From Rahnella bruchi (GTDB lineage: Bacteria > Pseudomonadota > Gammaproteobacteria > Enterobacterales > Enterobacteriaceae): 64,000 nucleotides of DNA. The position numbers and the translations under genes are program-made. The stretch spans positions 1-64,000 of the forward strand of contig NZ_QZWI01000013.1 in assembly GCF_003614975.1 (NCBI RefSeq). The letters are read 5' to 3'. A model generated the notes under the pieces. It saw only the letters and a program-made list of their open reading frames with translations. It was not told the origin of the DNA and made no database searches. Position 1 is the first letter of the stretch, and each line of letters starts with the position of its first letter. Shown here piece by piece: positions 10,239-26,139 of the stretch.

Positions 10239-10829
10239 TTACAGGTTACGATCCAGAGTAATAAATACCTGCCCTAAAGCAGCCACTTCATCCACGCCGC
10301 ATTCGAAATGACTTTCCTGACGCGTGACGCTCAGGCGGTTACCGGGAATACGGGCCACATCATAAATATCCAGATCACCATCGATATCCAGCAACCAGCG
10401 TCCATTGCCCGGATGCGTGCTGCCCAGATCGATAATCCAGGAATGATGACCTTTAACGACATAAGCCGGCTGAGTCAGCGAGCCATCAAGCAGCGAAGGA
10501 TCAACAGACCAGACACCTTCTTCTTCCAGCGCACCGCCGCGTAATCTCAACTTTTTAAGCTGGCGGATATCACCGGACGCTGCCGCACCTGAAAGAGCCG
10601 AATCCTGCATGTTACCTTTCCCTGTCGCCAGCCAGCGTAATGAGACACCGGTGTCCAGCGCACACGCCACGACCACATCGCCGGGGAAGTAATCTCTTCG
10701 TACCCAGGTACTTATCGTTCCAGATGACAAACCGTACAGATCCCCCAGTTCCTTCTGCATGCTAAAGCCGTAAGCCTGAAGCATCCGCGTCAGAACAGCT
10801 TTTCCACCTTCAAGTTCATCTAATTGCAT
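10239..10829 (-). CDS. cI: Phage 186-type CI repressor
   Basis: 196 residues from the chosen ATG (10827-10829). An N-terminal helix-turn-helix domain of the phage CI family (about 10-75, with LGDLYGLSSGTISTWV and the downstream LRWLATGKG) is followed by a C-terminal oligomerisation domain. Its end, FECGVDEVAALGQV, resembles phage 186 CI, which ends FECGIDDIKTLGRV. There is no LexA-type autocleavage site that I can see, so like 186 CI it is probably not cleaved by RecA but needs an antirepressor. The longer frame to 10928 is rejected because it would run across the divergent early promoter. It is divergent from the early operon. Confidence 0.87.
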   Translation of the reverse strand: MQLDELEGGKAVLTRMLQAYGFSMQKELGDLYGLSSGTISTWVRRDYFPGDVVVACALDTGVSLRWLATGKGNMQDSALSGAAASGDIRQLKKLRLRGGALEEEGVWSVDPSLLDGSLTQPAYVVKGHHSWIIDLGSTHPGNGRWLLDIDGDLDIYDVARIPGNRLSVTRQESHFECGVDEVAALGQVFITLDRNL

Positions 10830-10855
10830 CTGGCGAAAACCCCTGAATCTGTAAA

Positions 10856-10891
10856 TGTCATCTTGACAACTCGCAAATGCAAGTTTAGATT
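10856..10891 (+). promoter_or_regulatory. Early promoter with palindromic operators
   Basis: -35 TTGACA (10863-10868), 17-base spacer, -10 TAGATT (10886-10891), reading into the early operon. The spacer is almost filled by the 18-base palindrome AACTCGC-aaat-GCAAGTT (10868-10885). A second inverted repeat TGTCA-tct-TGACA (10856-10868) covers the -35. A repressor bound to either would block RNA polymerase. The first palindrome recurs nearly unchanged upstream of ogr (25893-25910), so it is the better candidate for the CI operator. Confidence 0.8.
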
Positions 10892-10961
10892 GATTATGTA
10901 ATGTACCGACAGGCGACCATGATACCAAATTTACGGCGCCGTGGAGAAATAAGGAGACGCG

Positions 10962-11237
10962 ATGTTTTTAGGAACAGAGCAGCAGCGCCAGACCGGACTG
11001 CGCCATATTGCTCATCTGAAGAAAATCTATTTCGCTCAGACTAACAATCCGGCTGAGGTTATTTTTGATCAGGCCGGTGATAAATGGAAACTCACATTAT
11101 GTTTTCATGCCGGTCTTAAACGCCATCATAGCTTAATGACCTATTCACAATTAAATGATGAGGAAAAAATGAAAATAACGCAGGCATTATTATCACTTCG
11201 CCATTTCACGGCAATATTTAAAGGAGAACTTTACTGA
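10962..11237 (+). CDS. Uncharacterised phage early protein
   Basis: 91 residues, first gene of the early operon, 70 bases after the early promoter, with an AAGGAGACGCG ribosome site. I do not recognise the family. The sequence is polar and basic at the start (MFLGTEQQRQTGLRHIAHLKK) with no membrane segment, signal or cysteine pair. In P2 and 186 this position holds small regulators (cox/apl, cII, fil, orf78-83); nothing here shows a DNA-binding fold clearly. Its stop overlaps the start of the next gene (TGATG), so the two are translationally coupled. Confidence 0.7.
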   Translation: MFLGTEQQRQTGLRHIAHLKKIYFAQTNNPAEVIFDQAGDKWKLTLCFHAGLKRHHSLMTYSQLNDEEKMKITQALLSLRHFTAIFKGELY

Positions 11238-11458
11238 TGGCAGACTGGATAGATGAATCACAGGAATATCAGTTAAAAATTCTCGAAGCGCAGATCTCGC
11301 AGGCAATCCGCACGCAGCCTGCGCCGTCAGCCTTCGTCTGTGTGGATTGTGATACTCCCATTGCACAGCTACGCAGAAAAATCATTCCCGGTGTACAGCG
11401 ATGCATTGAATGCCAGGAAATAGTGGAAATTAAAAGAAAGAATTATCGCCCCGTATAA
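11237..11458 (+). CDS. TraR/DksA-type zinc-finger protein
   Basis: 73 residues with a four-cysteine zinc finger, Cys35-X2-Cys38 and Cys56-X2-Cys59, preceded by a short helix. This is the shape of the TraR/DksA C4 family, short members of which are found in P2-like phage early operons. Such proteins can bind the RNA polymerase secondary channel and mimic DksA with ppGpp. Whether this one does is not shown by sequence; the acidic tip residues typical of DksA are represented only by DWIDE near the start. It is coupled to the upstream gene by a TGATG overlap and precedes gene A. Confidence 0.8.
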   Translation: MADWIDESQEYQLKILEAQISQAIRTQPAPSAFVCVDCDTPIAQLRRKIIPGVQRCIECQEIVEIKRKNYRPV

Positions 11459-11551
11459 ACCCTCGAATTAGCATCGTTCAAACTCACCTCCACGCTGGAA
11501 ATAACATTATTTCCGGAAGGAATTCTATATTCTTATTTTCGGAAAACGTTT

Positions 11552-13456
11552 ATGTCAGAGAATATATTCACCCAAAGTTCTCCACCGCCCTTACCGGTTT
11601 TTGACAGGACTTCCGGGCAATCTTTCACAGGCAAATGGTGGTGGAATGCCGCGCGCCCTGCGCTAAACAGTCCGCTGGAGAAGCCTCTTACCCATGATTT
11701 CTGTCTGCGCCAGCAAACCGCCCTTTCCCGTCTGACGACGCTGCCCCGTTGTCTGCGTGCGCCGTTACACCAGCGGTATACTTTTTTGCTCGAAACCAAA
11801 GGAGTTCGAGCGGCAGTTAATTTTCTGATGACGTTTTTTACACAACGTTTGTGGCCGCGTATTCAGCAAGTGAATGCACGGAATAGACTGAATCGTCAGA
11901 TCTCGCAAAAACTACTCCCGGAAGAAGAAATCTTTAACCGTCTGCCTGACCTTAATGATGACAGTCTGAAAAGACTGGCCAGCAAGCTGGCTGTGCATAT
12001 GCAAGATGCCTTTGAATATCACTGCGAACGCTGGCTGCAAAGCCGGCCTGAAGATCCCGACGTATTATTGCAGGACAGCACGCAGCGCGAGATTTACGGG
12101 CATATCGCGGCGATGGCGCTGTCGTGCCGCGTGCAGCCCCTTTACTGGCAGGCGTGGAAAAAAGACCGCATGACCGCGCATTCTGCCGTCGCCAGCATTT
12201 CACGGCTGGTCAGCGGCGACTGGTGGGAAAAACAGTTACGTTCAAAGCAGCGTTTGTGGCGCGAGGCCCTGATGATTGCCTGTGGTTATGTCAGCCGCGC
12301 AACATCGCCTTACGCCAGCAAAAATGCCATCCGTGATGTGGTATCACGCCGCTTATCCGCCATTAATTACCTGAAGCAATGCCAGCTCGAAAATGTCGAA
12401 TCCGGCGAGACTCTGAGCCTGCTGGAGACCGTATTAGCCAGCATTTCTAACCCCAAACTTCGCCGTATGGAGCTGATGACGCTGATCGCGGGTGTCGAAG
12501 ATGTCGCTGACCAGCAGCGCGATTGCGGCCTGTTTATCACCCTGACCACGCCTTCAAAATATCATCCGCTGAAAACCACCGGTGCCGGATCCTCTCCTCT
12601 TTTTAATAAGAAATGGGATCAGCACGCTTTTAATCCTAAAGATGCGCAGCGCTATCTGGTCGCCGTCTGGGCAAAAATCCGCACCACCTTTAAAGACCGG
12701 AACCTCAAAGTGTACGGTGTGCGCGTCGTCGAACCGCATCACGACGGTACGCCGCACTGGCACATGATGTTATTCACGCCACCGGAACAGCAGCAGAAAG
12801 TGACCGAGGTTATGCGCCGTTATGCTCTGGAAGAAGACCCCGACGAACCGGGAGCTGCGGATTCACGCTTCAATTGCAAACCGCTCAACCGTGGCGGTGC
12901 GGCCGGATATATCGCGAAATATGTCGCCAAGAACATTGATGGTTACGCTCTGGATGGCGAAACGGATTTTGACTCCGGCCGCTTACTGACAGATGTCGCC
13001 ACGGCGGTGACTTCCTGGGCATCGACATGGCGGATCCCGCAGTTTCACGCGATTGGCATCCCGTCGGTAGGGGCCTGGCGGGAATGCAGACGGATCAGGG
13101 AGCAGAGCCTGAGCCACCGTTTTGATATACAGGTTGAGCAAGTTCGCAGCGCCGCCGACCAGGGGGATTTTGCCGGTTATATTCAGGCGCAGGGCGGCAT
13201 ACATATTCCGCGAAAAGAGCAAACGGTTCGCGTTGCACGCCAGATCAGTGGGGAAACGAATGCCTACGGTGAGCCCCGTAACAAAGTGGTCGGCATTTAC
13301 GCCCCGCACCTTGGCGCCTCGCTTATTTTCCTGACACATACCGAACAGTGGCGAATAGTCCGTCACCGGCCTTCTTCAGCAGAAAGGCAGGCGACTCGCC
13401 TGCCTTGGAGTTCTGTCAATAACTGTGGATCGCCTTCCGACGGAGATAATCCGTAG
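11552..13456 (+). CDS. A: P2 gpA-like rolling-circle replication endonuclease
   Basis: HUH-superfamily nickase that starts P2-type rolling-circle replication at an origin normally inside its own gene. 634 residues, shorter than P2 gpA (761). The metal-binding motif is PHWHMM (His402, His404) and the catalytic tyrosines are in YIAKYVAKN (Tyr453, Tyr457, the Y-X3-Y pair of this family). The C-terminus (PWSSVNNC) looks like the end of other P2-type A proteins, so the reduction is internal or N-terminal rather than a frameshift. The frame is intact. Keeping it in an element without capsid or terminase genes is unusual. Confidence 0.92.
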   Translation: MSENIFTQSSPPPLPVFDRTSGQSFTGKWWWNAARPALNSPLEKPLTHDFCLRQQTALSRLTTLPRCLRAPLHQRYTFLLETKGVRAAVNFLMTFFTQRLWPRIQQVNARNRLNRQISQKLLPEEEIFNRLPDLNDDSLKRLASKLAVHMQDAFEYHCERWLQSRPEDPDVLLQDSTQREIYGHIAAMALSCRVQPLYWQAWKKDRMTAHSAVASISRLVSGDWWEKQLRSKQRLWREALMIACGYVSRATSPYASKNAIRDVVSRRLSAINYLKQCQLENVESGETLSLLETVLASISNPKLRRMELMTLIAGVEDVADQQRDCGLFITLTTPSKYHPLKTTGAGSSPLFNKKWDQHAFNPKDAQRYLVAVWAKIRTTFKDRNLKVYGVRVVEPHHDGTPHWHMMLFTPPEQQQKVTEVMRRYALEEDPDEPGAADSRFNCKPLNRGGAAGYIAKYVAKNIDGYALDGETDFDSGRLLTDVATAVTSWASTWRIPQFHAIGIPSVGAWRECRRIREQSLSHRFDIQVEQVRSAADQGDFAGYIQAQGGIHIPRKEQTVRVARQISGETNAYGEPRNKVVGIYAPHLGASLIFLTHTEQWRIVRHRPSSAERQATRLPWSSVNNCGSPSDGDNP

Positions 13457-13530
13457 TCACCACAAAAACCGTGCCAATAAAAATTCATACATAAATTCAA
13501 GCAATTATATTTTTTAAAATGGCCTGAGTG

Positions 13531-13575
13531 TTGACGTATTAGATCAATTAAAGAATACTGTATATAAACACAGTA
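13531..13575 (+). promoter_or_regulatory. LexA (SOS) box over a promoter
   Basis: TACTGTATATAAACACAGTA (13556-13575) fits the LexA operator TACTGT-N8-ACAGTA in full. It overlaps a promoter with -35 TTGACG (13531-13536), 17-base spacer and -10 AATACT (13554-13559), and ends 17 bases before the start of a 64-codon ORF. Phage 186 has a LexA-controlled promoter (p95) at the same place, after gene A, driving the antirepressor tum. Confidence 0.92.
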
Positions 13576-13592
13576 TCTGGCGAGGGGAGAAA

Positions 13593-13787
13593 ATGGAAAA
13601 CCTGACTAAACAACAGCTAACGTTGTCCAGGATACAATTGATCGCAGACATATCGCAGACGGCACAATGCAATCCAAAAGAATTTCTGGTCGTAATGTCG
13701 CTTATCTCAGAGCTGGCCAGCCAGGCGCTGACTGACGAAAATCAGGCCGCGGTCTGCTACAACGGGAGTACTGACGACGCTCACTGA
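13593..13787 (+). CDS. SOS-controlled small protein, candidate CI antirepressor
   Basis: 64 residues, with a GAGGGGAG ribosome site ten bases upstream of its ATG. I do not recognise the family. It reads as a mostly helical, soluble protein with no signal, membrane segment or cysteine pair. Control by a near-perfect LexA box and its place after gene A match tum of phage 186, whose product binds and inactivates CI on DNA damage. Tum is much longer (about 146 residues, with a DinI-like end), so this would be an analogue rather than an obvious homologue. The antirepressor role is inference from position and regulation only. Confidence 0.75.
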   Translation: MENLTKQQLTLSRIQLIADISQTAQCNPKEFLVVMSLISELASQALTDENQAAVCYNGSTDDAH

Positions 13788-13897
13788 TTGCCAGATCCTG
13801 CGGCGGTAGTAATCAACACTGTTGGCGCTTGCCCGACCGGTTTTTATCCGGACAAAGCGCCCCGCCATCTCCCTGTCTGATTTGTATGATTCTCTGT

Positions 13898-13915
13898 TGT
13901 GCCAGTCGTTTCACA
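13898..13915 (+). promoter_or_regulatory. Ogr/Delta-type late activator box
   Basis: TGT-N12-ACA inverted half-sites, the P2 Ogr recognition pattern centred near -55. The centre at 13906 predicts a start near 13961, about 38 bases before gene X. In P2 the box preceding O-N-M-L-X drives head genes; here it would drive X, the lysis genes and R directly. The remainder of 13788-13998 holds no gene I can support. Confidence 0.6.
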
Positions 13916-13998
13916 TCCCTTCCAGATTGCCGCTCCGTTCCCTATTGCGCAGACTTAACTCATCGACTGACTTCCTCACTCACTCGCGGAGAAAACCC

Positions 13999-14202
13999 AT
14001 GAAAGTCTATGCACAACAGGGCGATACCCTCGATTCCCTATGCTGGCGCTATTACCACCGCACCGCCGCAGTGGTCGAAAAAGTCTACGCCGCCAATAAA
14101 GGCATCGCCGATTTAGGCCCGTTATTACCACATGGCACAGCCATCGAATTGCCTGACATCGCAGAACAACCGGTTCAGGAAGCGATCAAATTATGGGACT
14201 GA
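13999..14202 (+). CDS. X: P2 gpX-like tail protein (LysM-like)
   Basis: 67 residues, the P2 gpX length. A small LysM-like domain begins MKVYAQQGDTLDSLCWRYYHRT. gpX is a minor tail component needed for tail assembly and is retained in R-pyocin clusters. The ATG at 13999, after GCGGAGAAA, is chosen over a frame that begins at 13822 and has no similarity in its extra part. Its end overlaps the holin start by ten bases. Confidence 0.93.
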   Translation: MKVYAQQGDTLDSLCWRYYHRTAAVVEKVYAANKGIADLGPLLPHGTAIELPDIAEQPVQEAIKLWD

Positions 14203-14414
14203 ATACTGAACGGATCAGTTCCGGCTGCGCCTATTTTATTGCCACCTCGCTGACCTGGCTCGCCAGCATGACCTCGCAGGATGTCGCCTTTATGGTCGGC
14301 TCAGCCGTCGGTGTCGGTACGTTTCTGATCAACTGGTATTACCGGCGCAAAAGCTATCAGTTGCTGGTACGCAGTGGTCTGAGCAAAGACACCTATGAAA
14401 ATCTCAACTCTTAA
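14193..14414 (+). CDS. Phage holin
   Basis: 73 residues with two predicted membrane segments (about 11-27 and 31-49), a short turn and a basic cytoplasmic tail (RRKSYQLL), as in small two-segment holins. It sits where P2 has holin Y, between X and the endolysin, and overlaps both neighbours. It would permeabilise or depolarise the inner membrane to trigger the SAR endolysin. Confidence 0.85.
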   Translation: MGLNTERISSGCAYFIATSLTWLASMTSQDVAFMVGSAVGVGTFLINWYYRRKSYQLLVRSGLSKDTYENLNS

Positions 14415-14904
14415 ACGCTGTAGCGCCGCCGTCGTTTTGGGGCTGATGGCGGCATTGCCGGGTTACCTGTCGTTGCAGGTGTCGGAAGACGGATTGCGGC
14501 TGATCACTGATTTTGAAGGCTGTCAGTTGCAACCCTACCAGTGCAGCGCCGGCGTATGGACCAGCGGTATCGGCCACACGGCAGGCGTTAAACCGGCACA
14601 GCCCATTACCGAACATCAGGCAGCGGAAAACCTGCTGGCAGATATTCAGCAGACAGAACGCACCGTAAAAAAGTGTATGCCGGTGACGATGCCGCAGCCG
14701 GTTTTTGATGCCGTCGTGTCATTCAGTTTTAACGTCGGTACCGGTGCTGCCTGTAAATCCACGCTGGCGTTTTTCATCAATCATCAAAAATGGCAACAAG
14801 CCTGCGACCAGTTGCCGCGCTGGGTTTTCGTTAATGGTGAACGTAACCGCGGACTGGAACGCAGGCGAAATGATGAACGAACCGTCTGCCTGAAAGGAGT
14901 CTGA
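14395..14904 (+). CDS. SAR endolysin (GH24 lysozyme)
   Basis: 169 residues, P1 Lyz/phage 21 type. The N-terminal weakly hydrophobic segment (about 11-29) is a signal-anchor-release domain, so it is exported by Sec and released when the membrane is depolarised. The T4-lysozyme-type active site E-X8-C/D-X5-T is present as Glu41, Cys50, Thr56, with SGIGHT after it. The Cys in the middle position (and Cys9, Cys43) suggests control by disulphide exchange, as in P1 Lyz. It occupies the place of P2 gene K. Confidence 0.92.
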   Translation: MKISTLKRCSAAVVLGLMAALPGYLSLQVSEDGLRLITDFEGCQLQPYQCSAGVWTSGIGHTAGVKPAQPITEHQAAENLLADIQQTERTVKKCMPVTMPQPVFDAVVSFSFNVGTGAACKSTLAFFINHQKWQQACDQLPRWVFVNGERNRGLERRRNDERTVCLKGV

Positions 14905-15333
14905 ATGCGCCTGTTACCGACACTTCTGGCTGGGATGGTTTTACTGGTCGCCATTCTGTTGCTTTCCAATCGCTCATTACAGCACGACCTCAACATTGTC
15001 GGGCTGCAACGCGACACCCTGACGGTTCAGCTGCAACAGCGGGAACAGCTGATTACTGCCCTGAATCAGCAAATGCGCCAGCGCGAGCAGGCTGAACTGG
15101 CGTTACGCGAAGACCTGAGTACCGCCAACCAGGTGATGCAAAACCGTGAAAAGCAAAGGCAGAGGAGCCTCCATGAAAATCTGCAAACCCGTCAGTGGGC
15201 TGGTACCGGGCTGCCTGATGATATTAGCCGGCTGCACCAGCGCCCCGCCTTCAGCTCCGCCAGCGATTATTTACGTTGGCTGTCCACCGGTCAGCTCATG
15301 CCCGATACCGACCAGCAAACCCGTAACAAATGA
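14905..15333 (+). CDS. lysB: LysB/Rz-like inner-membrane spanin
   Basis: 142 residues. One N-terminal membrane segment (about 4-21) is followed by a long periplasmic coiled coil rich in Gln, Arg and Leu (about 28-95), the layout of an i-spanin. It starts at the base after the endolysin stop. With LysC it would fuse inner and outer membranes in the last lysis step. No P2 lysA homologue is found in the cassette. Confidence 0.88.
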   Translation: MRLLPTLLAGMVLLVAILLLSNRSLQHDLNIVGLQRDTLTVQLQQREQLITALNQQMRQREQAELALREDLSTANQVMQNREKQRQRSLHENLQTRQWAGTGLPDDISRLHQRPAFSSASDYLRWLSTGQLMPDTDQQTRNK

Positions 15334-15463
15334 AGATCTGAGTGCCGACATTCTCCAGCTGGAATCAGCGCTGACGGACTGCGGCTTACAAATTGAAGCC
15401 ATTAAAAAGTGTCAGGAGGCACAACATGCAAAAACCAATCCAGCTGCAGCAACGGCTCATTGA
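15173..15463 (+). CDS. lysC: LysC/Rz1-like outer-membrane spanin lipoprotein
   Basis: 96 residues, the P2 LysC length, nested out of frame in lysB, the classic Rz/Rz1 overlap. A signal peptide ends in lipobox LAGC with acylated Cys21, followed by a proline-rich stretch (SAPPSAPP) typical of Rz1. The ATG at 15173 after GAGGAG is the only start that puts the lipobox at a normal distance. Its end overlaps gene R by 38 bases. Confidence 0.9.
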   Translation: MKICKPVSGLVPGCLMILAGCTSAPPSAPPAIIYVGCPPVSSCPIPTSKPVTNEDLSADILQLESALTDCGLQIEAIKKCQEAQHAKTNPAAATAH

Positions 15464-15890
15464 ACAGGTGCCGCTGCTCGCAGCCTCGCCGGACAAACTG
15501 GTGATTGCCACCGGCGCAGGCCAGATAGTCGCGACGTCTGCCGCTTCACTTTCATTTGAATATCGTTATCCGCTGACGCTGACCGTCAGGGATGACGCAG
15601 TTCTCAGCGAAGCACTTGTCGACCAAATGGTAGTGGTTATTCTCGACTGGATGCAGGTTAATCAGCCCGAAATTCTCGGGAACGCGGTAAACCGGCCCAG
15701 TGATTTCACCTTTACTCAGCAGGAGAAAACCCTGGTACTGACGCTGCAACTGACTGAGCGCGTCCAGGTTTCCGGGGAAGAAGATGTGCGCACCATCATT
15801 CATCTGCCTGAACCGCCACTGCCGGAGAACGTGTCGTTGCCACGTCAGGTTTATCTCAACGGAGAACTGATCAGCAGCTGGACGGTATGA
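15426..15890 (+). CDS. R: P2 gpR-like tail completion protein
   Basis: 154 residues (P2 gpR 155). GpR-family features are visible throughout, ending in HLPEPPLPENV...LNGELISSW. In P2, R and S finish the tail end that joins the head. Here R is followed directly by V and the S gene is absent. The ATG at 15426 has an AGGAGG ribosome site. Confidence 0.88.
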   Translation: MQKPIQLQQRLIEQVPLLAASPDKLVIATGAGQIVATSAASLSFEYRYPLTLTVRDDAVLSEALVDQMVVVILDWMQVNQPEILGNAVNRPSDFTFTQQEKTLVLTLQLTERVQVSGEEDVRTIIHLPEPPLPENVSLPRQVYLNGELISSWTV

Positions 15891-15971: not shown

Positions 15972-16613
15972 ATGAATACGACTCTTCAACTCAACGACAT
16001 AATGCGGCTGATTGGCAATCTGGTGCGCATCGGTAAGGTCTCAGAACTGGATCTGACCAACGCCCGTTGCCGCGTCTTGACGGGCAGCAACGTGACGGCC
16101 TGGCTGCCGTGGATGACGCACCGCGCTGGCCGTACGCGCAGCTGGTGGGCGCCTTCCGTCGGTGAGCAGGTTTTGCTGCTCTCGATGGGCGGAGAACTGA
16201 ACACTGCATTCGTTTTACCGGCGGTATTCTCCGATGCCTCACCCGCGCCATCAGCTTCGCCAGACGCCCTTCATCTGGCCTTCCCGGACGGCGCCGTTTT
16301 TGAATACGAACCGGCACAAAGCGCCCTGAAAGTGACAGGCATAAAAACCGCCGTGATTAACGCCTCCCAGAAGGTTGAGGTCACGGCACCCGAAATCCGC
16401 TGTACCGCCAGCACGCGCATTACGCTCGATACGCCGGAAGTGGTTTGCACCAGCAAACTGATCACCGGCTCCCTTGAAGTTAAACAAGGCGGCACACTGA
16501 CCGGCAACTTAACCCACAGCGGCGGCAGCCTGACATCCAACGGCATCGTTGTGCACACTCACCGACACAGCGGTGTTCAGACCGGCGGTGGTCAGACAGG
16601 AGGCCCGCAATGA
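15972..16613 (+). CDS. V: P2 gpV-like baseplate spike
   Basis: 213 residues (P2 gpV 211). Trimeric membrane-piercing spike: an N-terminal OB-like domain, a beta-helix region (about 110-190 with repeated T/V/S patterns), and a C-terminal metal-binding His cluster HTHRHSG. In gpV the HxH pairs hold an iron ion at the tip. It opens the baseplate operon and overlaps W by four bases. Confidence 0.95.
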   Translation: MNTTLQLNDIMRLIGNLVRIGKVSELDLTNARCRVLTGSNVTAWLPWMTHRAGRTRSWWAPSVGEQVLLLSMGGELNTAFVLPAVFSDASPAPSASPDALHLAFPDGAVFEYEPAQSALKVTGIKTAVINASQKVEVTAPEIRCTASTRITLDTPEVVCTSKLITGSLEVKQGGTLTGNLTHSGGSLTSNGIVVHTHRHSGVQTGGGQTGGPQ

Positions 16614-16960
16614 GTAACCCGAAATACCTGGGGATGGACAGAAACAGCGGTTTGGCCATCGAAGATCTCGACCACATCCGCCAGTCCGTCAGCGACATTT
16701 TAAATACGCCGGTGGGTTCCAGAGTAATGCGCCGCAATTACGGCTCTTTGCTTTCTGAGCTGATTGACCAGCCGCAAAACGGCGCGCTGCAGCTACAGAT
16801 GATGGCCGTGTGCTACACCGCCCTGTTGCAGTGGGAACCCCGCGTTTCACTGACAGCTATCACTTTCGACACCGGTTATGACGGCAAGATGGTGATTGAA
16901 CTGACCGGAAGCCGTAACGATACGGCGACGGATTTTTCCCTGAATATTCCTGTGAGCTGA
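16610..16960 (+). CDS. W: P2 gpW-like baseplate wedge protein
   Basis: 116 residues (P2 gpW 115). T4 gp25-family baseplate/sheath initiator with the typical opening YLGMDRNSGLAI and the GSRVMRRNYGSLL motif. Its start overlaps the V stop (ATGA). Confidence 0.95.
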   Translation: MSNPKYLGMDRNSGLAIEDLDHIRQSVSDILNTPVGSRVMRRNYGSLLSELIDQPQNGALQLQMMAVCYTALLQWEPRVSLTAITFDTGYDGKMVIELTGSRNDTATDFSLNIPVS

Positions 16961-16965
16961 CACTT

Positions 16966-17874: not shown

Positions 17875-18394
17875 CAGGTTGCTGCCCAGCGGTTCATCCT
17901 CACTGGAACTGGCAGCCGCAGAAGCCTGCGCTGAACTGGCGCGTGTGGATGTTCCGCTGAAAACGTTATGGAATCCGCAAACCTGCCCGGCCAAATTTTT
18001 GCCTTATCTGGCATGGGCACTTTCTGTTGATCGCTGGGACAGCGAATGGCCAACGGCAACAAAACGCAGCGTGATTCAGTCTGCCTGGTTCATCCATCAG
18101 CATAAAGGAACCATCAGCGCCATCAAACGCGTGGTCGAGCCTCTCGGGTATGTCATTAACGTCACCGAATGGTGGGAAACTAATGACCCGCCAGGCACAT
18201 TCAAACTCGATATCGGCGTTCTCGATTCCGGAATTGATGAAGCCATGTACGAAGAAATGGAGCGCCTGATTGATGATGCGAAACCCGCCAGCCGTCATCT
18301 GATCGGACTAACGATTACTCAGGATATTCCCGGCACCGTCTATCTGGCGGCGGCAATGTATGACGCAGAAATACTCACTGTTTATCCGGACTGA
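17867..18394 (+). CDS. I: P2 gpI-like baseplate wedge protein
   Basis: 175 residues (P2 gpI 176). The family signature TCPAKFLPYLAWALSVDRWD is present, as is the IHQHKGTISAIKRVVEPLGY helix region. It links the wedge to the tail fibre and is encoded just before the fibre gene H, as in P2. It overlaps J by eight bases. Confidence 0.96.
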   Translation: MSNRLLPSGSSSLELAAAEACAELARVDVPLKTLWNPQTCPAKFLPYLAWALSVDRWDSEWPTATKRSVIQSAWFIHQHKGTISAIKRVVEPLGYVINVTEWWETNDPPGTFKLDIGVLDSGIDEAMYEEMERLIDDAKPASRHLIGLTITQDIPGTVYLAAAMYDAEILTVYPD

Positions 18395-18405: not shown

Positions 18406-19935
18406 ATGAGCAAATTTAAATCCGTCGTCACCACTCTCGGGCAGGCGCGTATTGCGTCAGCCATCGAAAGCGGAAAAGACGTCAATATCACCCAACTTGC
18501 CGTCGGAGACGGTAATGGCAGCGCAACTGAACCTGCTGTGGGTCAGACGACACTGGTCAATGAAACCTACCGTCTGAAGCTAAACTCTCTCAAAATCGAC
18601 AACAAAAATGCCAACTGGATCATTGCCGAAGCCATTATCCCGGCAGAAGTCGGCGGTTTCTGGATGCGTGAAATGGGGCTATTTTCCGCAGAAGGCGAAC
18701 TGATTGCCGTCAGTAACATGGCCGACAGCTACAAACCCACGCTTGAGGAAGGTTCCGGCAGGACACAAACACTGCGCATGGTATTAACCGTCACAGATAC
18801 AGATGCGGTCAGCCTGACCATTGATGACACCCTGATTATTGCGACCGAAGAATACGTTAACAATCTGCTGGCAGAACACGAAGCCTCACGACGTCACCCC
18901 GACGGTACGCTGACCGCGAAAGGTTTCGTTCAGCTGAGCAGCGCGGTGGACAGCAACAGTGAAATTTTGGCGGCAACTCCGAAAGCGCTAAAAACGTCTT
19001 ACGACCTGGCAAAATCTGCGAATGATAATGCTAACGGGCGCTTAGCCTCAGGCGGAACTGCTGTTGCAGCAACTAAGCTGGCGACAGCAAGGAAAATTGC
19101 GGGAGTAGCGTTTGATGGGACGGCGGATATCTCGCTGAATGCATCTAACATTGGACTCGGAAATGTAGGCAATTATCAGTCAGTCCAGGCTGGCGGTGGA
19201 TTAAATTACATAAATAACCACAAGATTTATATTGACTGGGGTAAAGGCGATAAACTTTATGCGACCGTGGACAATGTCAATCAAGGTGTTATTTATACGG
19301 GGAGCAACCCTCCGACCTCAGAGGAAGTTGGTGCCTATCCGTCTACTGGAGGAAATGTATCCGGTTATGTAAGTGCACAATTCTTAGGTGTAAATGGAGC
19401 ACCGAATCCAGGTTTAAGGCAAGGCACATATATTGGCTGGAATGAAAGTAACGGGCAGGGAGAATCAAATTTTGTAAATAATAAGGGCGATGGTTATGGA
19501 GGTTTTAACTTTCGCATAGTAAATACAAATAACTCGGTACAAACAGGTCAAGTTGTCATCTCTGGTAACGGTAATCTTAACACATCAGGAACACTGAGTG
19601 AGGCAGGGCAACGGGTTTATAGCCCTAACAACCCACCACCATCAGGTGTTACTCGAACCGGAAATTATTCCGCTTATTACTCGCATTCAAACGGTCAGGT
19701 GTTCTTGCAGTCTATAGGTGGCATTAACTCTAATTCTAGTACTAATCCAGATGTGACTATTACTCTGCCTGCGACTTTCCCAACGGGAATAATTGCAATC
19801 AGTGGATCCTATACTGGTACCGGTGGCAAGGACTCTAGCAGTTGGTGGACAGCTACACCTGTGGGGAATAATCAAATCAAGCTTCATACAACCAATTGCA
19901 GTGGAACTTGGGCATTCATAGTGGCGGGGTATTAA
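18406..19935 (+). CDS. H: P2 gpH-like tail fibre (receptor-binding) protein
   Basis: 509 residues, shorter than P2 gpH (669). The N-terminal domain that attaches to the baseplate (about 1-150, DUF3751 type) is well conserved: MSKFKSVVTTLGQARIASAI and GGFWMREMGLFS. A tail-fibre repeat follows (about 160-220). From about residue 205 on the DNA becomes visibly AT-richer and the protein turns into a glycine-, serine- and asparagine-rich tip with no P2 similarity that I recognise. The tip sets the target range, so this is the part expected to differ between strains. It ends TAATG into G. Confidence 0.92.
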   Translation: MSKFKSVVTTLGQARIASAIESGKDVNITQLAVGDGNGSATEPAVGQTTLVNETYRLKLNSLKIDNKNANWIIAEAIIPAEVGGFWMREMGLFSAEGELIAVSNMADSYKPTLEEGSGRTQTLRMVLTVTDTDAVSLTIDDTLIIATEEYVNNLLAEHEASRRHPDGTLTAKGFVQLSSAVDSNSEILAATPKALKTSYDLAKSANDNANGRLASGGTAVAATKLATARKIAGVAFDGTADISLNASNIGLGNVGNYQSVQAGGGLNYINNHKIYIDWGKGDKLYATVDNVNQGVIYTGSNPPTSEEVGAYPSTGGNVSGYVSAQFLGVNGAPNPGLRQGTYIGWNESNGQGESNFVNNKGDGYGGFNFRIVNTNNSVQTGQVVISGNGNLNTSGTLSEAGQRVYSPNNPPPSGVTRTGNYSAYYSHSNGQVFLQSIGGINSNSSTNPDVTITLPATFPTGIIAISGSYTGTGGKDSSSWWTATPVGNNQIKLHTTNCSGTWAFIVAGY

Positions 19936-20366
19936 TGATTAGCAATTATTATTTCAGTTCTAAAAATTGCGGATTTTATCCCTCATCTTTAAAGTCAGCC
20001 TATGAAGCATCCCCTGAAGGCTGGCCAGATGATGGTATTCCTGTAAGTGATGACGATTATTACGCTCTTTTTGCCGGACAAAAAAAAGGGCAAATAATAA
20101 CAAAGGACAGTGAAGGACGTCCGTCGCTATCCGCACCTCAAGCTTTAACCCGGGAACAATTTATTCTTATAGCGCAGGATATACTTGCTACTAAATTAGC
20201 ATTTGCTGCAAATGCAATTTTTCCGATGCAAGACTCCGTCGATCTTAATATTGCATCAGAATCGGAGCGGCTGCTTCTCAAAGCCTGGAAAACCTACCGT
20301 GTCGCTCTGAACCGGTTGGATATTTCAACAGCCCCAGACATCCCCTGGCCCGAAATTCCGGCCTGA
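19935..20366 (+). CDS. G: Tail fibre assembly chaperone
   Basis: 143 residues from the ATG that overlaps the H stop (TAATG). Tail-fibre-assembly (Caudo_TAP) family with the usual C-terminus, in which AWKTYRVALNRLD is followed by PDIPWPEIPA. It folds or trimerises the matching H tip, so it normally coevolves with it; its first half shares the AT-rich composition of the H tip. A strong terminator follows. Confidence 0.92.
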   Translation: MISNYYFSSKNCGFYPSSLKSAYEASPEGWPDDGIPVSDDDYYALFAGQKKGQIITKDSEGRPSLSAPQALTREQFILIAQDILATKLAFAANAIFPMQDSVDLNIASESERLLLKAWKTYRVALNRLDISTAPDIPWPEIPA

Positions 20367-20413: not shown

Positions 20414-20431
20414 TGTGCCACCGCCCCCACG
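20414..20431 (+). promoter_or_regulatory. Ogr/Delta-type late box upstream of FI
   Basis: TGT-N12-ACG, one base off the TGT-N12-ACA pattern, in the context GTTGTGCCA shared with the box at 13898. The centre near 20422 predicts a start near 20477, 29 bases before FI. It corresponds to P2 promoter PF. Confidence 0.55.
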
Positions 20432-20505: not shown

Positions 20506-21675
20506 ATGGCTGATTATCATCACGGCGTACGTGTTGTCGAAATCAACGACGGCACCCGCGTTATTTCTACCGTTTCCACAGCAATTATCGGCATGGTTTG
20601 TACCGCAGAAAATGCGGATGCGACCGTTTTCCCTTTGAATACTCCGGTTCTGGTCACCGACGTTCTGGCCGCCAGCGGTAAAGCCGGCACCAGCGGCACG
20701 TTGCGCGCTGCGCTCCTGGCGATTGCTGACCAGTGTAAACCGGTCACGGTCGTGGTACGCGTTGCCACCGGCGAAGATGAGGCCGAAACCACCAGCAATA
20801 TCATTGGTGGCTCTGATGCTAATGGCCGTTACACCGGCATGAAAGCGCTGCTTTCTGCGCAGGCTGAGCTTGGTGTAAAACCCCGCATTCTCGGTGTTCC
20901 TGGCCTGGATAATCAGGCGGTCGCAACCGCGCTGGCAGGCGTTTGCCAGCAACTGCGTGCCTTTGGTTATGTCAGCGTATATGGCGCCAAAACCATTTCC
21001 GATGCGATTAAATATCGCGACAACTTCAGCCAGCGCGAACTGATGCTGATCTGGCCGGACTTTGTAAACTGGAATACCACCACCAGCCAGTCTGATATCG
21101 CTTACGCGACAGCCCGCGCTCTGGGCTTACGCGCCAAAATCGACCAGGACACCGGCTGGCATAAAACGCTGTCAAACGTCGGCGTTAACGGTGTGACAGG
21201 TCTTTCTGCCAGCGTCTTCTGGGATTTGCAGGCGACCGGCACTGACGCCGATCTGCTGAACGAAGCCTGTGTCACCACCCTGGTACGTAAAGACGGATTC
21301 CGTTTCTGGGGTAACCGCACCTGCAGCGATGACACGCTGTTCCTGTTTGAGAACTACACCCGTACCGCGCAGGTTCTGGCAGACACCATGGCCGAAGCGC
21401 ATATGTGGGCGGTCGATAAGCCGATGACCCCGACGCTGGTTCGCGACATGATCGATGGCATCAAAGCCAAAATGCGAGAAATGAAATCAGCGGGTTACAT
21501 CATTGATGGCGACTGCTGGTACGACGAAACCGCGAATACGGCGGAAACCCTGAAAGCCGGCAAACTGTATATCGATTACGACTACACGCCAGTTCCTCCA
21601 CTGGAAGATCTGACCCTGCGCCAGCGTATCACCGACTCTTATCTGGTGAACTTTGCCGCGTCCATTAACAGCTAA
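20506..21675 (+). CDS. FI: P2 FI-like contractile tail sheath protein
   Basis: 389 residues (P2 FI 396). Major sheath subunit, start MADYHHGVRVVEINDGTR, with the conserved C-terminal domain (FRFWGNRTC, then DKPMTPTLVRDMID). The ATG at 20506 is used; an in-frame start 31 codons upstream lies inside the promoter region. Contraction of the FI polymer drives the tube through the target envelope. Confidence 0.97.
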   Translation: MADYHHGVRVVEINDGTRVISTVSTAIIGMVCTAENADATVFPLNTPVLVTDVLAASGKAGTSGTLRAALLAIADQCKPVTVVVRVATGEDEAETTSNIIGGSDANGRYTGMKALLSAQAELGVKPRILGVPGLDNQAVATALAGVCQQLRAFGYVSVYGAKTISDAIKYRDNFSQRELMLIWPDFVNWNTTTSQSDIAYATARALGLRAKIDQDTGWHKTLSNVGVNGVTGLSASVFWDLQATGTDADLLNEACVTTLVRKDGFRFWGNRTCSDDTLFLFENYTRTAQVLADTMAEAHMWAVDKPMTPTLVRDMIDGIKAKMREMKSAGYIIDGDCWYDETANTAETLKAGKLYIDYDYTPVPPLEDLTLRQRITDSYLVNFAASINS

Positions 21676-21689
21676 GGAGACAATGACTC

Positions 21690-22199
21690 ATGGCACTTCC
21701 TAAGAAATTGAAATACCTGAACCTGTTTAATGACGGGAACAGCTACCTCGGACTGGTCTCTTCGCTGACTCTGCCGAAACTCACCCGCAAACTGCAAAAC
21801 TACCGTGGCGGCGGCATGAGCGGTTCGGTGGCGGTGGACTTCGGTCTGGATGACGATGCACTGACGCTGGAATGGTCCATCGGCGGTCTGGATGAGTTGG
21901 TTCTGCAGCAATGGGGCAGCACGTCGGATATCCCGCTACGTTTTGCCGGTTCGCTTCAACGTGATGATACGGGCGATGTCTCTGCCGTCGAAGTGATGAT
22001 GCGCGGCCGTCACAAAGAGTTTGATTTCGGCGAATACAAACAGGGTGAAGACACTGAAACCAAAGTCACCACCCAGTGCACGTACTTCAAACTGACTATT
22101 GATGGCAAAGAACTGATTGAGATCGACACCGTCAACATGGTCGAGGTCGTCAACGGTGTTGATCGTCTGGCAGAGCATCGTACCGCGCTAGGTCTGTAA
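21690..22199 (+). CDS. FII: P2 FII-like tail tube protein
   Basis: 169 residues (P2 FII 172). Start MALPKKLKYLNLFNDGNSYLG and the GGMSGSVAVDFGLDDDALTLEW block are typical of P2 tube subunits. It lies 14 bases after FI with a good AAGGAGACA site. Confidence 0.97.
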   Translation: MALPKKLKYLNLFNDGNSYLGLVSSLTLPKLTRKLQNYRGGGMSGSVAVDFGLDDDALTLEWSIGGLDELVLQQWGSTSDIPLRFAGSLQRDDTGDVSAVEVMMRGRHKEFDFGEYKQGEDTETKVTTQCTYFKLTIDGKELIEIDTVNMVEVVNGVDRLAEHRTALGL

Positions 22200-22257
22200 T
22201 TCCCCCCAAAGCCGGCAGCCCTTGCCGGCTTCACTCCCGACTTAAACAGGAAAGCAC

Positions 22258-22545
22258 ATGAATACGACTGACATCAACGATAACACCGTGTCTCTCGACG
22301 TTCCGCTCAAACGCGGCGATACGGAAATAACAGAAATTCAGGTGACAAAACCGACCGCCGGTAGCCTGCGCGGTATTGGTCTTGCGGCACTCGCGAACGC
22401 AGATGTGGACGCGCTGATCACCATTTTGCCGCGCATCACCTATCCGAACCTGACTAAAGAAGAGTGCTCACGCCTGGAGCTGCCGGATCTGATTGCGCTC
22501 GCAGGCAAGGTGATTGGTTTTTTATCGCCGAAACCGGTGGTGTAA
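22258..22545 (+). CDS. E: P2 gpE-like tail assembly chaperone
   Basis: 95 residues (P2 gpE 91). With the frameshifted E+E' product it coats the tape measure during tail assembly. Near its end is the slippery heptamer T-TTT-TTA (22518-22524) in the correct frame for -1 slippage. Confidence 0.93.
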   Translation: MNTTDINDNTVSLDVPLKRGDTEITEIQVTKPTAGSLRGIGLAALANADVDALITILPRITYPNLTKEECSRLELPDLIALAGKVIGFLSPKPVV

Positions 22546-22700
22546 GGATTGCACCCCGCCTCACCGTGGATGACCTGATGGCAGATATCGCGGTGATATT
22601 TCACTGGCCGCCGTCCGAGATGGACGGCATGTCACTCACCGATCTGCTGAACTGGCGACATAAGGCACTGCAACGCAGCGGAGTAAAAACAGATGAGTAA
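22258..22700 (+). CDS. E': E+E' frameshift fusion (tail assembly chaperone)
   Basis: A -1 frameshift at T-TTT-TTA (22518-22524) joins the first 89 codons of E to a 58-codon downstream frame, giving about 147 residues (142 in P2). The E' part reads on as IAETGGVRIAPRLTVDDL and contains HWPPSEMDGMSLTDLLNWR, conserved in P2-like E'. It ends eight bases inside gene T. The conserved slippery site and intact downstream frame show that the programmed frameshift is kept. Confidence 0.88.
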
Positions 22701-24324
22701 TCTCGAACAATTACCCGATACTCTCGAAAAAATTAATCAGGATCTGGCCGCCTTCAGAGCCGAAACAGACAGGGTCAGGAAAAACCTGCTGGAGCTGCCC
22801 GGTAAGACTTTCTTCAGCGTCGTTTCAGAAGACATCACTGACGTTTCCCATCAGTTTGAAACGTCGCTTTTCGCTCCCGATAGCGAGACTGAAACACAGG
22901 CATTTTCCGGCCTGAAAAAAGCGGTGTCGAGCCAGTCGGCAGAAAAGCTGGGTCAGCAACGCCCGCAACAAATGGAACAAAGAGGGCTTGAGATCGGACA
23001 ACAGGTTAAAAATCGCGAACTGAAAATCGGTCAGTTAAAAAATATCAGCTCGTCTGCCCTGTCCTTTGCACAACCGAAACTGGCGCTGGCGCAAAACTTT
23101 CTTAAACCGGGTGCCGAACTGGAAGCCGGACTGGCAGATGTGCAGTCGGTTCTCGGACTGAAAAATGACGATCCGCACGTTGCGGCTTTACGTAAGCAAA
23201 GTCTATCGATGGCCGCTTCCGGCCATTCACCTGCGGACGTTGTCGCCAAACAGCAGGCACTCGCGAAAACCGGAATGAATGCCGAGCAGGTTCTGGCGCA
23301 GACACCGGCGGCACTGAATGGCGCCACGCCCACAGCCCAAATGGCGGTGACTGTTAAAGGCGACAACCTTGACGGCGATATCACGAAACTTTTTGCCACC
23401 TGGAACACTATCCGTATCAATCTTTTCGACGGACAAAGCGCCGCCCTGCGAGAGCTCACGCAAACAGCCACCAGCTGGCTGGGCACCATCAACACCTGGA
23501 TCACTGATAATCCGGTGCTGGTAAATTCCCTGCTCGGTCTGGCATTAGGTATCACGGGAATTATCGGTGGGATCGGCATGCTCGGCATGACCATTGCGCC
23601 GGTTCTGGGCGGCATCAATATGCTGATGGCGGGAGCAGGTCTGCTGGGAACGATTTTTACCGGCACCGGCGGCGTTATCGCCACCGCTTTTGCCGCCATC
23701 GGACTTCCGTTACTGCCCGTCATCGCACTGTTAGCCGGGATCGGTATTGCTGTTGTGCAACTTTGGGAGCCGATCAGCGCTTTTGTCGGCGGTGTCATTG
23801 AAGGATTTTCCTCAGTCGTCGGGCCGGTAGGTGACGCCTTCGCGCCTTTCAGAACCGCACTGGGCTGGATAACGGATTTATTTGAACCTATTCAATTCAC
23901 ACAAAGTACCCTGAGCGGTTTCACCGATATCGGCAAACAAGTCGGCGAAGTAATCGGCGAGATTCTTGCCTCCCTGAACAGAGCGGTTTCTCAAATCGGT
24001 GAAGTCTTCAGCTGGGCTAAGAAAGGATGGGATTCACTTTTTGGCGGCGACGATTCAGCTGAACGCCAGGATATTCCTGTTCCACCGGTTGAGAGTATTT
24101 CTCCTACAGGCGGCACGCTGAGCCTGTATCAGCCTGCGAAAACCTCTGTAGCGAACAACCTTACGGATAACCGCGCAACGTCCGTGAACTTAAGCTTTAC
24201 CGCAACGCCGGAAACGGATCATAACCAGATCAGAACCTGGATTGAAGATTCGTTAAACCAGCAGAAATGGAACAATACCAACAATCTTCTCAGCCAGTAC
24301 GACAACGGAGGGATTTACTCATGA
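22693..24324 (+). CDS. T: P2 gpT-like tape measure protein
   Basis: 543 residues, much shorter than P2 gpT (815). Helical N-terminal part (about 1-250) and a central hydrophobic glycine-rich membrane-active stretch (about 275-360), as in tape measures. Tape length sets tail length at roughly 0.15 nm per residue, so the tail should be about two thirds of the P2 tail. The frame is intact at both ends, overlapping E' and U, so this is a shortened rather than a broken gene. Confidence 0.92.
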   Translation: MSNLEQLPDTLEKINQDLAAFRAETDRVRKNLLELPGKTFFSVVSEDITDVSHQFETSLFAPDSETETQAFSGLKKAVSSQSAEKLGQQRPQQMEQRGLEIGQQVKNRELKIGQLKNISSSALSFAQPKLALAQNFLKPGAELEAGLADVQSVLGLKNDDPHVAALRKQSLSMAASGHSPADVVAKQQALAKTGMNAEQVLAQTPAALNGATPTAQMAVTVKGDNLDGDITKLFATWNTIRINLFDGQSAALRELTQTATSWLGTINTWITDNPVLVNSLLGLALGITGIIGGIGMLGMTIAPVLGGINMLMAGAGLLGTIFTGTGGVIATAFAAIGLPLLPVIALLAGIGIAVVQLWEPISAFVGGVIEGFSSVVGPVGDAFAPFRTALGWITDLFEPIQFTQSTLSGFTDIGKQVGEVIGEILASLNRAVSQIGEVFSWAKKGWDSLFGGDDSAERQDIPVPPVESISPTGGTLSLYQPAKTSVANNLTDNRATSVNLSFTATPETDHNQIRTWIEDSLNQQKWNNTNNLLSQYDNGGIYS

Positions 24325-24791
24325 TGATGTCGCTGGGTTTATTCGTGTTCAAATTGAGCACGCTGCCCTATCAGAGCACGTCCCGTCAGGTGAATTATGG
24401 CTGGGGCACTAATACCCGGTTTGGACAGCGCCCGGTTTCGCAATTTCTCGGGTTGGGTGAAGAGACCATGACCCTTAAAGGGCAACTGTTGCCTGAAGTT
24501 ACCGGTGGAATTCGCTATCTGCAGGCGCTGCAAAGCATGGCCGATTCCGGGCGTGCATGGCCGCTGATTGAAGGCAGCGGCACGATTTATGGCATGTTTA
24601 TCATCAAAAATATTGCCAATGACAATGCTGAGTTTAATTCCAGCGGTCAGGCGCGAAGTATCAATTTTACGCTCAATCTTACTCGCGTCGATGAGTCGCA
24701 GGCTGCCATGTTCGGCGACCTGCTGACGCAAGCTGAAGGTTTGTATAACAAAGCAAGTTCAACCATCAGCAATTTCGCGAGCGGAGTCTGA
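24321..24791 (+). CDS. U: P2 gpU-like tail terminator/completion protein
   Basis: 156 residues (P2 gpU 159). GpU family: LGLFVFKLSTLPYQ, RQVNYGWGTNTRFGQRP and FLGLGEETMTLKG. The start is one of three consecutive ATG codons at 24321, overlapping the T stop; a GGAGGG site lies upstream. An in-frame ATG at 24267 would lie inside T and is rejected. Confidence 0.94.
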   Translation: MMMSLGLFVFKLSTLPYQSTSRQVNYGWGTNTRFGQRPVSQFLGLGEETMTLKGQLLPEVTGGIRYLQALQSMADSGRAWPLIEGSGTIYGMFIIKNIANDNAEFNSSGQARSINFTLNLTRVDESQAAMFGDLLTQAEGLYNKASSTISNFASGV

Positions 24792-24793
24792 TC

Positions 24794-25894
24794 ATGCTTA
24801 CTGACCTTCAGTTACCCGGTGGCGCTCGCATCGCGCCCGTATTCACCCTGGCGATAAAAAATAAGGTGCTGGAAGAAAACATCTCGGATCGGATCATCAG
24901 TTTATCCGTCACGGATAACAGCGGTTTTACCGCAGACACATTAAATTTAACTTTCGACGACAGCGACGGGCAACTGCAAATGCCGGTTCGCGGCGCCATT
25001 TTGCATCTGCATTTGGGATGGTCGCAACAGGCGCTTTATGACTGCGGCTATTTCACTGTAGATACGGTGGTTTATGCAGGTTCGCCGGACACTATCGCGG
25101 TCACTGCTCGCAGCGCAGATTTTCGCAGTTCGTTTACGACGAAACTCAGCCAGTCTTATGACGATTACACGCTTGGTGCAATTGTCAGAATCATTTCCAG
25201 CCGCAATAAATTAGATTTGCCGGTTATCCCCCAGGAGCTGGATAGTATTGTTATCCCGCATATCGACCAGACCAGCGAAACGGACAGCTACTTTCTCACC
25301 CGACTGGCGCAAAGCTATGGCGCCCAGGTGACTGTCAAAAACGGTTCAATCTTGTTTTTTAAAGCGGGCACCGGCCGCACCGCATCCGGGCAGGCTATCC
25401 CATGGAAAACACTCGTGCGCAGTGATGGCGATAATCACAACTATCAGATGATAGACAAAAAGGCCTATGACGGCGTGAAAGCGCAATGGCATGACCTTAA
25501 AACCGCGACCACCAGCAATGTTGCGCTTAAACGCTCGCCCGCAGAAGGCAAACAAGCTCAGCCTCCCAGCTATATAGCGGGAGCCGGGACCAATCCCTTT
25601 GAGCTGAGCAAAATATTTCCTGATGAAGAGACTGCACGGCGTGCGGCGGATTCCGTTTTTACTCAGATTCAGAAAGATGCTGCCTCTTTCAGTATCCGCC
25701 TGGCACTGGGGCGCGCAGATCTCAGCGCACAGGCACCGGTGAATGTGCAAGGCTTCAAAGACGTGATCGACAGTCAGCGCTGGGTGATTGATTCTTTGCT
25801 GCATGAAATTAATCAGAAAGGTTTTATTACCACATTGAACCTGAAGCCCTACATCGCAGATATCACTTACCTGTCTTCAATATCACAATCATAA
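24794..25894 (+). CDS. D: P2 gpD-like baseplate hub / late control protein
   Basis: 366 residues (P2 gpD 387). T4 gp27-like hub that carries the spike gpV. Phage_GPD signatures: FTADTLNLTFDDSDGQLQMP, GYFTVDTVVYAGSPDTI and DQTSETDSYFLTRLAQSYGA. The stop codon lies inside the palindrome that precedes ogr. Confidence 0.95.
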   Translation: MLTDLQLPGGARIAPVFTLAIKNKVLEENISDRIISLSVTDNSGFTADTLNLTFDDSDGQLQMPVRGAILHLHLGWSQQALYDCGYFTVDTVVYAGSPDTIAVTARSADFRSSFTTKLSQSYDDYTLGAIVRIISSRNKLDLPVIPQELDSIVIPHIDQTSETDSYFLTRLAQSYGAQVTVKNGSILFFKAGTGRTASGQAIPWKTLVRSDGDNHNYQMIDKKAYDGVKAQWHDLKTATTSNVALKRSPAEGKQAQPPSYIAGAGTNPFELSKIFPDEETARRAADSVFTQIQKDAASFSIRLALGRADLSAQAPVNVQGFKDVIDSQRWVIDSLLHEINQKGFITTLNLKPYIADITYLSSISQS

Positions 25895-25924
25895 CTTGCT
25901 TTTGCAAGTTATGAGTTTCATAAT
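25893..25924 (+). promoter_or_regulatory. Candidate CI operator and promoter of ogr
   Basis: Perfect palindrome AACTTGC-tttt-GCAAGTT (25893-25910; extends to ATAACTTGC/GCAAGTTAT, 25891-25912). It overlaps a promoter-like pair, -35 TTGCTT (25896-25901) and, after 17 bases, CATAAT (25919-25924). The half-sites are the same as those filling the early promoter spacer at 10868-10885, apart from one base. In phage 186 CI represses pB, the promoter of its ogr homologue B, in the same manner. Confidence 0.72.
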
Positions 25925-25959
25925 AACCTCATCGCTTACCTGTCATGCCGGAGGTTTTT

Positions 25960-26139
25960 ATGATGCATTGCCCGCTTTGTGGAAAGGTCGCCCATACACG
26001 TTCAAGCCGTTATCTGAGTGAATCAACGAAAGAACGCTATCATCAGTGTCAGAATATTGAGTGCAGCTGCACGTTTGCCACGCACGAGTCTGTCGCCCGG
26101 GTTATCTCAAAACCGGGGTCGCAGCCTGCCGCGGCGTAA
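25960..26139 (+). CDS. ogr: Ogr/Delta-family late transcription activator
   Basis: 59 residues, slightly shorter than P2 Ogr (72). Zinc finger with Cys-X2-Cys at MMHCPLCG and a second pair CQNIEC (C-X4-C), plus the family opening CPLCGKVAHTRSSRYLS. It activates late promoters through RNA polymerase alpha at TGT-N12-ACA boxes, two of which precede tail operons here. Start at 25960 after CCGGAGG; the adjacent ATG at 25963 would also work. Last gene of the element. Confidence 0.93.
   Translation: MMHCPLCGKVAHTRSSRYLSESTKERYHQCQNIECSCTFATHESVARVISKPGSQPAAA

Follow-up and report, generated by a model that had tools for sequence, protein, structure and literature searches.

Positions 10239-26139 of a 64,000-nt stretch of the Rahnella bruchi genome (NZ_QZWI01000013.1, positions 1 to 64,000; the whole stretch is hereafter called the window) hold a headless P2/186-type tail, lysis, and regulator cluster, located between aroF (8873-9949, minus strand) and rplS (26231-26578, minus strand). 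Sequence comparison supports its assignment as an R-type tailocin locus of the genus Rahnella. A retained phage replication initiator, gpA (11552-13456, plus strand), and an origin apparently under selection are what set this locus apart from known R-tailocins, as those are described. We consider it probable that the cluster is an SOS-induced, vertically inherited P2-type R-tailocin that still uses its phage replication module to amplify its own genes, and we infer that this replication occurs in situ. We also lean toward a wider proposal, in which such loci form a widespread class where the SOS response would fire a retained phage origin and amplify the tailocin locus in place, serving as a switch for gene dosage and late transcription; the module has been kept, after apparently two separate domestications, at two fixed sites in at least six genera.

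The initial annotation of this stretch took the selective loss of head, packaging, and integration functions as the mark of a domesticated contractile bacteriocin. That interpretation is supported, but its account left out gene A, the origin, a LexA box, and the 64-aa open reading frame (ORF) that follows. As the replication initiator and origin have been kept, the loss is more selective than was first described.

The gpA protein (634 aa; phrog_91) is shortened at its C-terminus and spans the whole Pfam GPA domain (PF05840). Its TPHWH motif is found in 23/23 A proteins of headless clusters in our tree and in 27/27 phage copies, and the YxxxY tyrosine pair (P2 residues 450 and 454) likewise occurs in all 23 A proteins of headless clusters. 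The P2 record places the nick site at base 29892, within A, and the 186 record similarly marks an origin. The block homologous to the annotated P2 nick site lies within A in the window (13404-13429, plus strand); the HUH motif with its tyrosine pair and the location of the origin inside A, both expected of a P2-type rolling-circle replicon, are thus present. Across 13 Rahnella loci, 25 of the 26 columns of the block are invariant, more than in any other 26-nt window of the A region; the best of the other windows has 21 invariant columns, and their mean is 12.4 (1850 windows). The sole variable column reflects one substitution, in locus L048.

We rejected the possibility that the block is conserved only as a consequence of protein conservation. 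Toward its 3' end, A varies between loci just before the block, with a mean of 9.4/26 invariant columns in the 100 windows immediately upstream. A shifted reading frame removes the usual residues at the block in L046, while the DNA is identical; the A frame of G195, a headless cluster from another genus, ends 71 nt short of the block, which is still exact. The origin is therefore kept as DNA and not as codons, which offers a simple criterion for distinguishing a domesticated phage module from decay. The A gene ends 35-95 nt past the origin start in the 13 Rahnella loci, 179-209 nt past it in four Ewingella loci and genome G115, 293-404 nt in five of six loci at a second chromosomal site (the sixth being G195), and 398-467 nt in 25/27 phage copies (251 nt in 186 and 176 nt in L174). 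These distances indicate that the coding sequence behind the origin has been eroded and the origin left untouched.

Behind A is a predicted SOS promoter (13531-13575, plus strand), comprising TTGACG (13531-13536) and a downstream LexA box, TACTGTATATAAACACAGTA (13556-13575). The box falls within a 30-nt invariant run, the longest of the A-to-orf64 stretch in 12 Rahnella loci, and is present in 13/13 Rahnella loci (12/12 plus L105). Both origin and box are found in the Ewingella loci L068, L069, and L071; the inner 16 nt of the box are identical in three Ewingella loci, with two differing at the last base of the 20. The 64-aa ORF (13593-13787, plus strand; phrog_1993) has a ratio of nonsynonymous to synonymous substitution rates (dN/dS) of 0.117 and zero Pfam or NCBIfam matches at E <= 0.001. 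It is predicted to be SOS-controlled and may be an antirepressor, like Tum of 186. At the corresponding position, and likewise preceded by a LexA box, a complete prophage elsewhere in the same genome encodes a related 63-aa ORF (35% identity), so the SOS module derives from the phage.

Based on these features, we propose a model for induction. DNA damage would free the LexA-controlled promoter behind gene A, and the 64-aa product may lift CI repression, upon which the early operon would make gpA. The conserved catalytic motifs and origin suggest that gpA nicks the origin inside its own gene. Starting at the nick, rolling-circle synthesis would copy the neighboring lysis and tail genes in place and so increase their number of copies; P2 replication runs from the nick toward the genes that here encode lysis and tail functions. 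Late transcription in P2 needs replication, and the raised copy number may help the Ogr-dependent late promoters here. Headless contractile tails of shortened length would form, the cell would lyse, and the particles would kill relatives chosen by the variable fiber. Because the locus lacks integrase, cos, terminase, and capsid, replication would serve production and not spread, and no export of its copies in particles is expected. If the origin does fire, a producer multiplies its weapon genes just before lysis, which would bear on how a few induced cells make many particles. The model also predicts an asymmetric copy-number peak that would be visible in ordinary sequencing of induced cultures.

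The losses that define the cluster are those first described. The ORF inventory leaves no ORF between aroF and rplS for the portal, terminase, scaffold, capsid, gpM, gpL, gpS, or integrase. The best matches in the cluster to the P2 and 186 cos sites have 6 mismatches in 19 positions, against 4-6 in shuffled sequences (n=20, P2 cos only) and 3 and 1 mismatches, respectively, in the prophage of the same genome. The window locus thus has none of the head, terminase, cos, and integrase functions of a complete P2 prophage. Only one match to the P2-type capsid family exists in the whole genome; it lies on another contig (C1), in the complete prophage, which has its own A, cI, head, S, tail, ogr, and integrase ORFs. 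Head genes elsewhere that belonged to one phage with this cluster would have spoken against a tailocin; the single capsid gene instead sits in this separate prophage. The presence of this prophage is what favors a reading of the cluster as satellite-like, or as one half of a split phage (its tail), dependent on heads supplied by the resident P2-like prophage. We find this barely credible and rejected it: the cluster has no cos-like site and no integrase ORF; the prophage has its own tail genes, including an 880-aa tape measure ORF and a sheath 78% identical to that of the window; and two of 13 genomes, G001 and G010, have no tape-measure match (E <= 0.001) besides that of the tailocin. Since the prophage is equipped with its own tape measure and sheath, and G001 and G010 lack a second tape measure, a split phage does not account for the cluster. 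A third ogr gene in this genome (G000:C1:1117000-1132000; L051) adjoins only a short gpD-like stretch and so belongs to another prophage or a remnant.

The cluster is a fixed feature of the genus, as its position had suggested. Full-length relatives of the tape measure are found in 13/14 Rahnella genomes, including this one, and the aroF-rplS interval contains the headless cluster in all 12 relatives fetched, although an extra stretch or contig was needed to see the flanks in G010 (L043 + L052) and G008 (L047 + L105). The cI gene is kept in 12/12 relatives having that end of the cluster, at 86-98% identity (L037-L046, L048) and 84% (L105). In the 14th genome, G007, neither the sheath nor the origin was found, and the contig ends inside the cluster; cI and 20 residues of the next ORF adjoin aroF, so we did not uphold G007 as a genome lacking the cluster. 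Ewingella holds the same cluster: L069 and L071 run from aroF to rplS, L068, L063, and L070 reach rplS only, and L160 spans A to I. Genome G037 also contributes an Ewingella locus. No full prophage was seen at aroF-rplS among the 13 Rahnella and the Ewingella loci read, all of which are headless. Genome G115, from a third genus, also carries a headless cluster between aroF and rplS, with a 354-aa integrase beside cI (L182 10607-11671, L153, L183), and a 13-nt att-like repeat is common to the integrase-side region and the rplS 3' end. The ancestral phage thus probably integrated at the end of rplS.

Phage ancestry, together with the integrase and att-like repeat retained in G115, could point to a decaying P2-like prophage without function. 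This is very improbable, and random decay was rejected on the basis of dN/dS and conservation, in agreement with the initial annotation. The tested genes are open and under purifying selection: mean dN/dS for 21 cluster genes, H and G not included, ranges from 0.012 (tube) to 0.275 (spanin), compared with 0.020 for aroF, these means omitting pairs with dS >= 2 or a failed estimate (D 31/78 pairs, I 28/55, others more). The same selective losses recur in 13 Rahnella genomes and Ewingella, and 13/13 loci keep the site for the programmed E/E' frameshift.

A scan for the origin core in 392 genomes of the family identified 51 places in 36 genomes, spanning 19/154 genera. Thirteen places are in Rahnella, and the region downstream of each of the other 38 was examined. 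Nine of these are headless, defined as having no match to Q, P, O, N, M, L, or S: G115, G219, G400, G109, G195 (one of its three places), G027, G069, and the Ewingella places G181 and G264:C20. Another 22 have head genes (21 by family match, G052:C11 by ORFs), and seven are partial or unclear (G283:C46, G264:C17, G037:C84, G099, G301, G052:C2, and one G353 place), with little besides A or head fragments at G283:C46 and G264:C17. This G353 place, the second in its genome (L166), contains A, the origin, L, and X to FI; the Q, P, O, N, M, and S families were not matched there, and it is perhaps a tailocin in the making.

Six of the headless clusters, from three genera (G027, G219, G400, G109, G069, and G195), occupy a second fixed site, which the N-terminal sequences of neighboring genes place near proQ and msrC. 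These contain gpA, the origin, a LexA box, and an orf64-like ORF and lack S, so that headless clusters with gpA and an origin occur at two fixed sites in six genera. While three genera diverged, a tailocin kept its initiator and, independently of codons, its origin; the same is true of a second lineage. The sheath tree places the two tailocin lineages among different phages, and a single tailocin clade is rejected (p-AU 0.0045, the P value of the approximately unbiased test); two separate domestications are likely, though not proven. The second-site clusters also vary in content. Several H-G fiber cassettes occur in tandem in G069 (L107, L111) and G195 (L172, L189), two genomes of one genus, and in G219 (L185) and G400 (L187) the ORF at the place of the tape measure is only 367 and 388 aa, respectively; in these last two clusters the Y, K, and lysB families were not matched.

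Several observations weigh against a replication module that is still in use. The C-terminal part of gpA is lost (634 vs 761 aa in P2). The first part of gpA is out of frame in G009/L045, and a substitution lies inside the origin core of G005/L048, each representing one species, while A is split by a frameshift in G195. In addition, no ORF of the locus could be placed as P2 gene B, which the P2 record describes as essential for lagging-strand synthesis. With respect to the broader class, a single tailocin clade is not rejected in the A tree (p-AU 0.188, with three long phage rows left out of the test), and the scan was conditioned on the origin and thus gives no measure of how often tailocins lose it. 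The frameshifts in L045 and G195, the eroded C-terminus, and the L048 substitution could all be explained if gpA and the origin of an ordinary R-tailocin were slowly decaying left-overs without a present role. We regard this as unlikely, given that A has a dN/dS of 0.108 at a mean dS of 1.13, that no invariant runs in the A-to-orf64 stretch are longer than those containing the origin and LexA box, amid varying neighbors, and that the module is kept in two lineages and six genera. These patterns indicate that selection acts on A, the origin, and the LexA box.

The headless clusters and the prophages differ at the sixth base of the origin core (window 13404-13429 compared with prophage G000:C1:273606-273628): this base is T in 9/9 headless loci of the scan and C in 19/22 complete prophages, possibly reflecting separate gpA specificities. 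Prophage-type copies of the core are frequent in the same genus, as would suit a gpA and origin kept for another purpose, for example to titrate superinfecting P2-like phages or interfere with them. That this is their role seems highly unlikely, as P2 gpA acts in cis, A lies in an early operon divergent from cI, and the sixth base of the headless loci is not the one that predominates in complete prophages. Amplification of the tailocin genes in situ is the use that we favor for the module.

The retained module is unusual relative to described tailocins. A review, in the part available, characterizes tailocins as lacking nucleic acid replication genes (PMC12090994), and loss of replication and capsid genes from prophages is described, in the available part of another source, as giving rise to headless particles (PMC10598620). 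In the present locus gpA and the origin are present and conserved; we treat it as a tailocin variant because the review statement is a generalization and not what makes a particle a tailocin. Dickeyocin P2D1, xenorhabdicin, and pantailocin likewise derive from P2-like contractile tail clusters; according to the available excerpts, xenorhabdicin is conserved genus-wide with CI, Ogr, and a DinI-type SOS regulator, and pantailocin occupies a fixed site (PMC10719855, PMC13280938, PMC12873547). The portions available for these three, for enterocoliticin and, one occurrence of the word "replication" aside, for carotovoricin mention no replication gene in the tailocin locus, the comparison being by description only. 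Carotovoricin of Pectobacterium resembles the Rahnella system in being genus-wide, at one fixed site, and with hypervariable fibers, as far as the available text describes it (PMC13195805), but is a different tailocin at a different site, reported in an excerpt to have little homology to the P2-like dickeyocin (PMC10719855).

A precedent is rhizoviticin of Allorhizobium vitis, whose tailocin locus also includes phage replication-related genes; its authors call these distinctive and absent from other tailocin regions and find five genes of the region indispensable (PMC10811719). Rhizoviticin, however, is F-type and has a DnaA-like initiator and a DnaB-like helicase, read by its authors, in the same portion, as an early evolutionary stage (PMC10811719). 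The window locus by contrast is R-type, has a P2 gpA with its origin, and is conserved across genera. In the open-licence literature, covered mainly through title listings, we found no description of a Rahnella or Ewingella tailocin or of gpA in an R-tailocin.

A functional analogy is offered by the Bartonella gene transfer agent, a domesticated phage locus in which a retained phage origin amplifies chromosomal DNA in place (run-off replication). That agent packages DNA into heads, whereas the window locus has no head.

With P2 and 186 the locus shares gene order, gpA, the origin, the late activator, and the E/E' frameshift; it differs in the missing head genes, S, cos, and integrase and in a tape measure of 543 vs 815 aa (P2 record). 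Matching of the window ORFs to profiles and families recovered the P2 order, and compared with P2, 186, and the prophage of the same genome the cluster has the phage order minus Q-P-O-N-M-L, S, cos, and int. On the plus strand an ORF of phrog_602 is followed by a DksA-like ORF, gpA, the 64-aa ORF, X, Y, K, lysB, R, and V, then W, J, I, H, G, FI, FII, E (with E'), T, U, D, and ogr; cI alone is on the minus strand. None of the translated ORFs has an internal stop, consistent with the initial claim of intact X-to-D tail genes in P2 order accompanied by lysis genes, CI, and Ogr. By the P2 standard the contractile tail and baseplate set is complete except for gpS.

The regulatory end begins with the 186-type CI repressor (10239-10928, minus strand; Pfam PF07022 + PF16452). 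The features that follow, all on the plus strand, start with two family-matched small early ORFs, that of phrog_602 (10962-11237), of unknown function, and the DksA/TraR-like zinc-finger ORF (11237-11458). Downstream of the 64-aa ORF, an Ogr-type late-promoter site, TGT-N12-ACA (13898-13915), lies upstream of X and is exact in 12/12 loci at -89/-90. The tail gene X (13987-14202) corresponds to only residues 56-126 of the listed ORF, which begins at 13822, those being the residues covered by phrog_46. Family matches identify the lysis genes Y (holin), K (endolysin), and lysB (spanin) at 14193-15333, the tail terminator gpR at 15393-15890 (gpS, next in P2, is missing), and the baseplate genes V, W, J, and I at 15972-18394. 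The tail fiber H and fiber chaperone G (18406-20366), also assigned by family match, are hypervariable between species.

An Ogr-like site with one mismatch precedes FI (20414-20431); one such site is found in 13/13 loci, at -92 in the four loci for which a position is given. Our scan for Ogr sites covered the regions upstream of nine genes and revealed an exact site common to the loci at X only. The sheath FI (20506-21675; phrog_23; dN/dS 0.028), listed from 20413, is followed by the tail tube FII (21690-22199; phrog_55, which PHROGs names head closure and which is FII in P2; dN/dS 0.012) and by the family-matched E (22258-22545), with E' reached by a -1 frameshift at T TTT TTA and open to 22700. 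The short tape measure T (22693-24324) is 539-564 aa long across 13 loci. U and D (24321-25894, tail genes by family match) and the late-gene activator ogr (25945-26139; PF04606; dN/dS 0.043) complete the cluster. For X, FI, and U, the automatically assigned ORF starts lie too far upstream, and the likely starts are at about 13987, 20506, and 24321. A search of 8000-29000 with Rfam returned nothing at gathering score.

The modules expected to determine specificity also differ in arrangement and sequence within Rahnella. In G010 (L043 36-7627, L052 10953-13501), J-I-H-G has moved from between W and FI to behind ogr, adjoining rplS, in what appears to be a natural relocation of the specificity module. 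Gene I (17867-18394) falls into allele classes, being 90-99% identical to the window copy in L040, L041, L042, and L045, 80% in L044, and 63-65% in L037, L038, L039, L043, L046, and L048, a distribution that points to module exchange together with the fiber.

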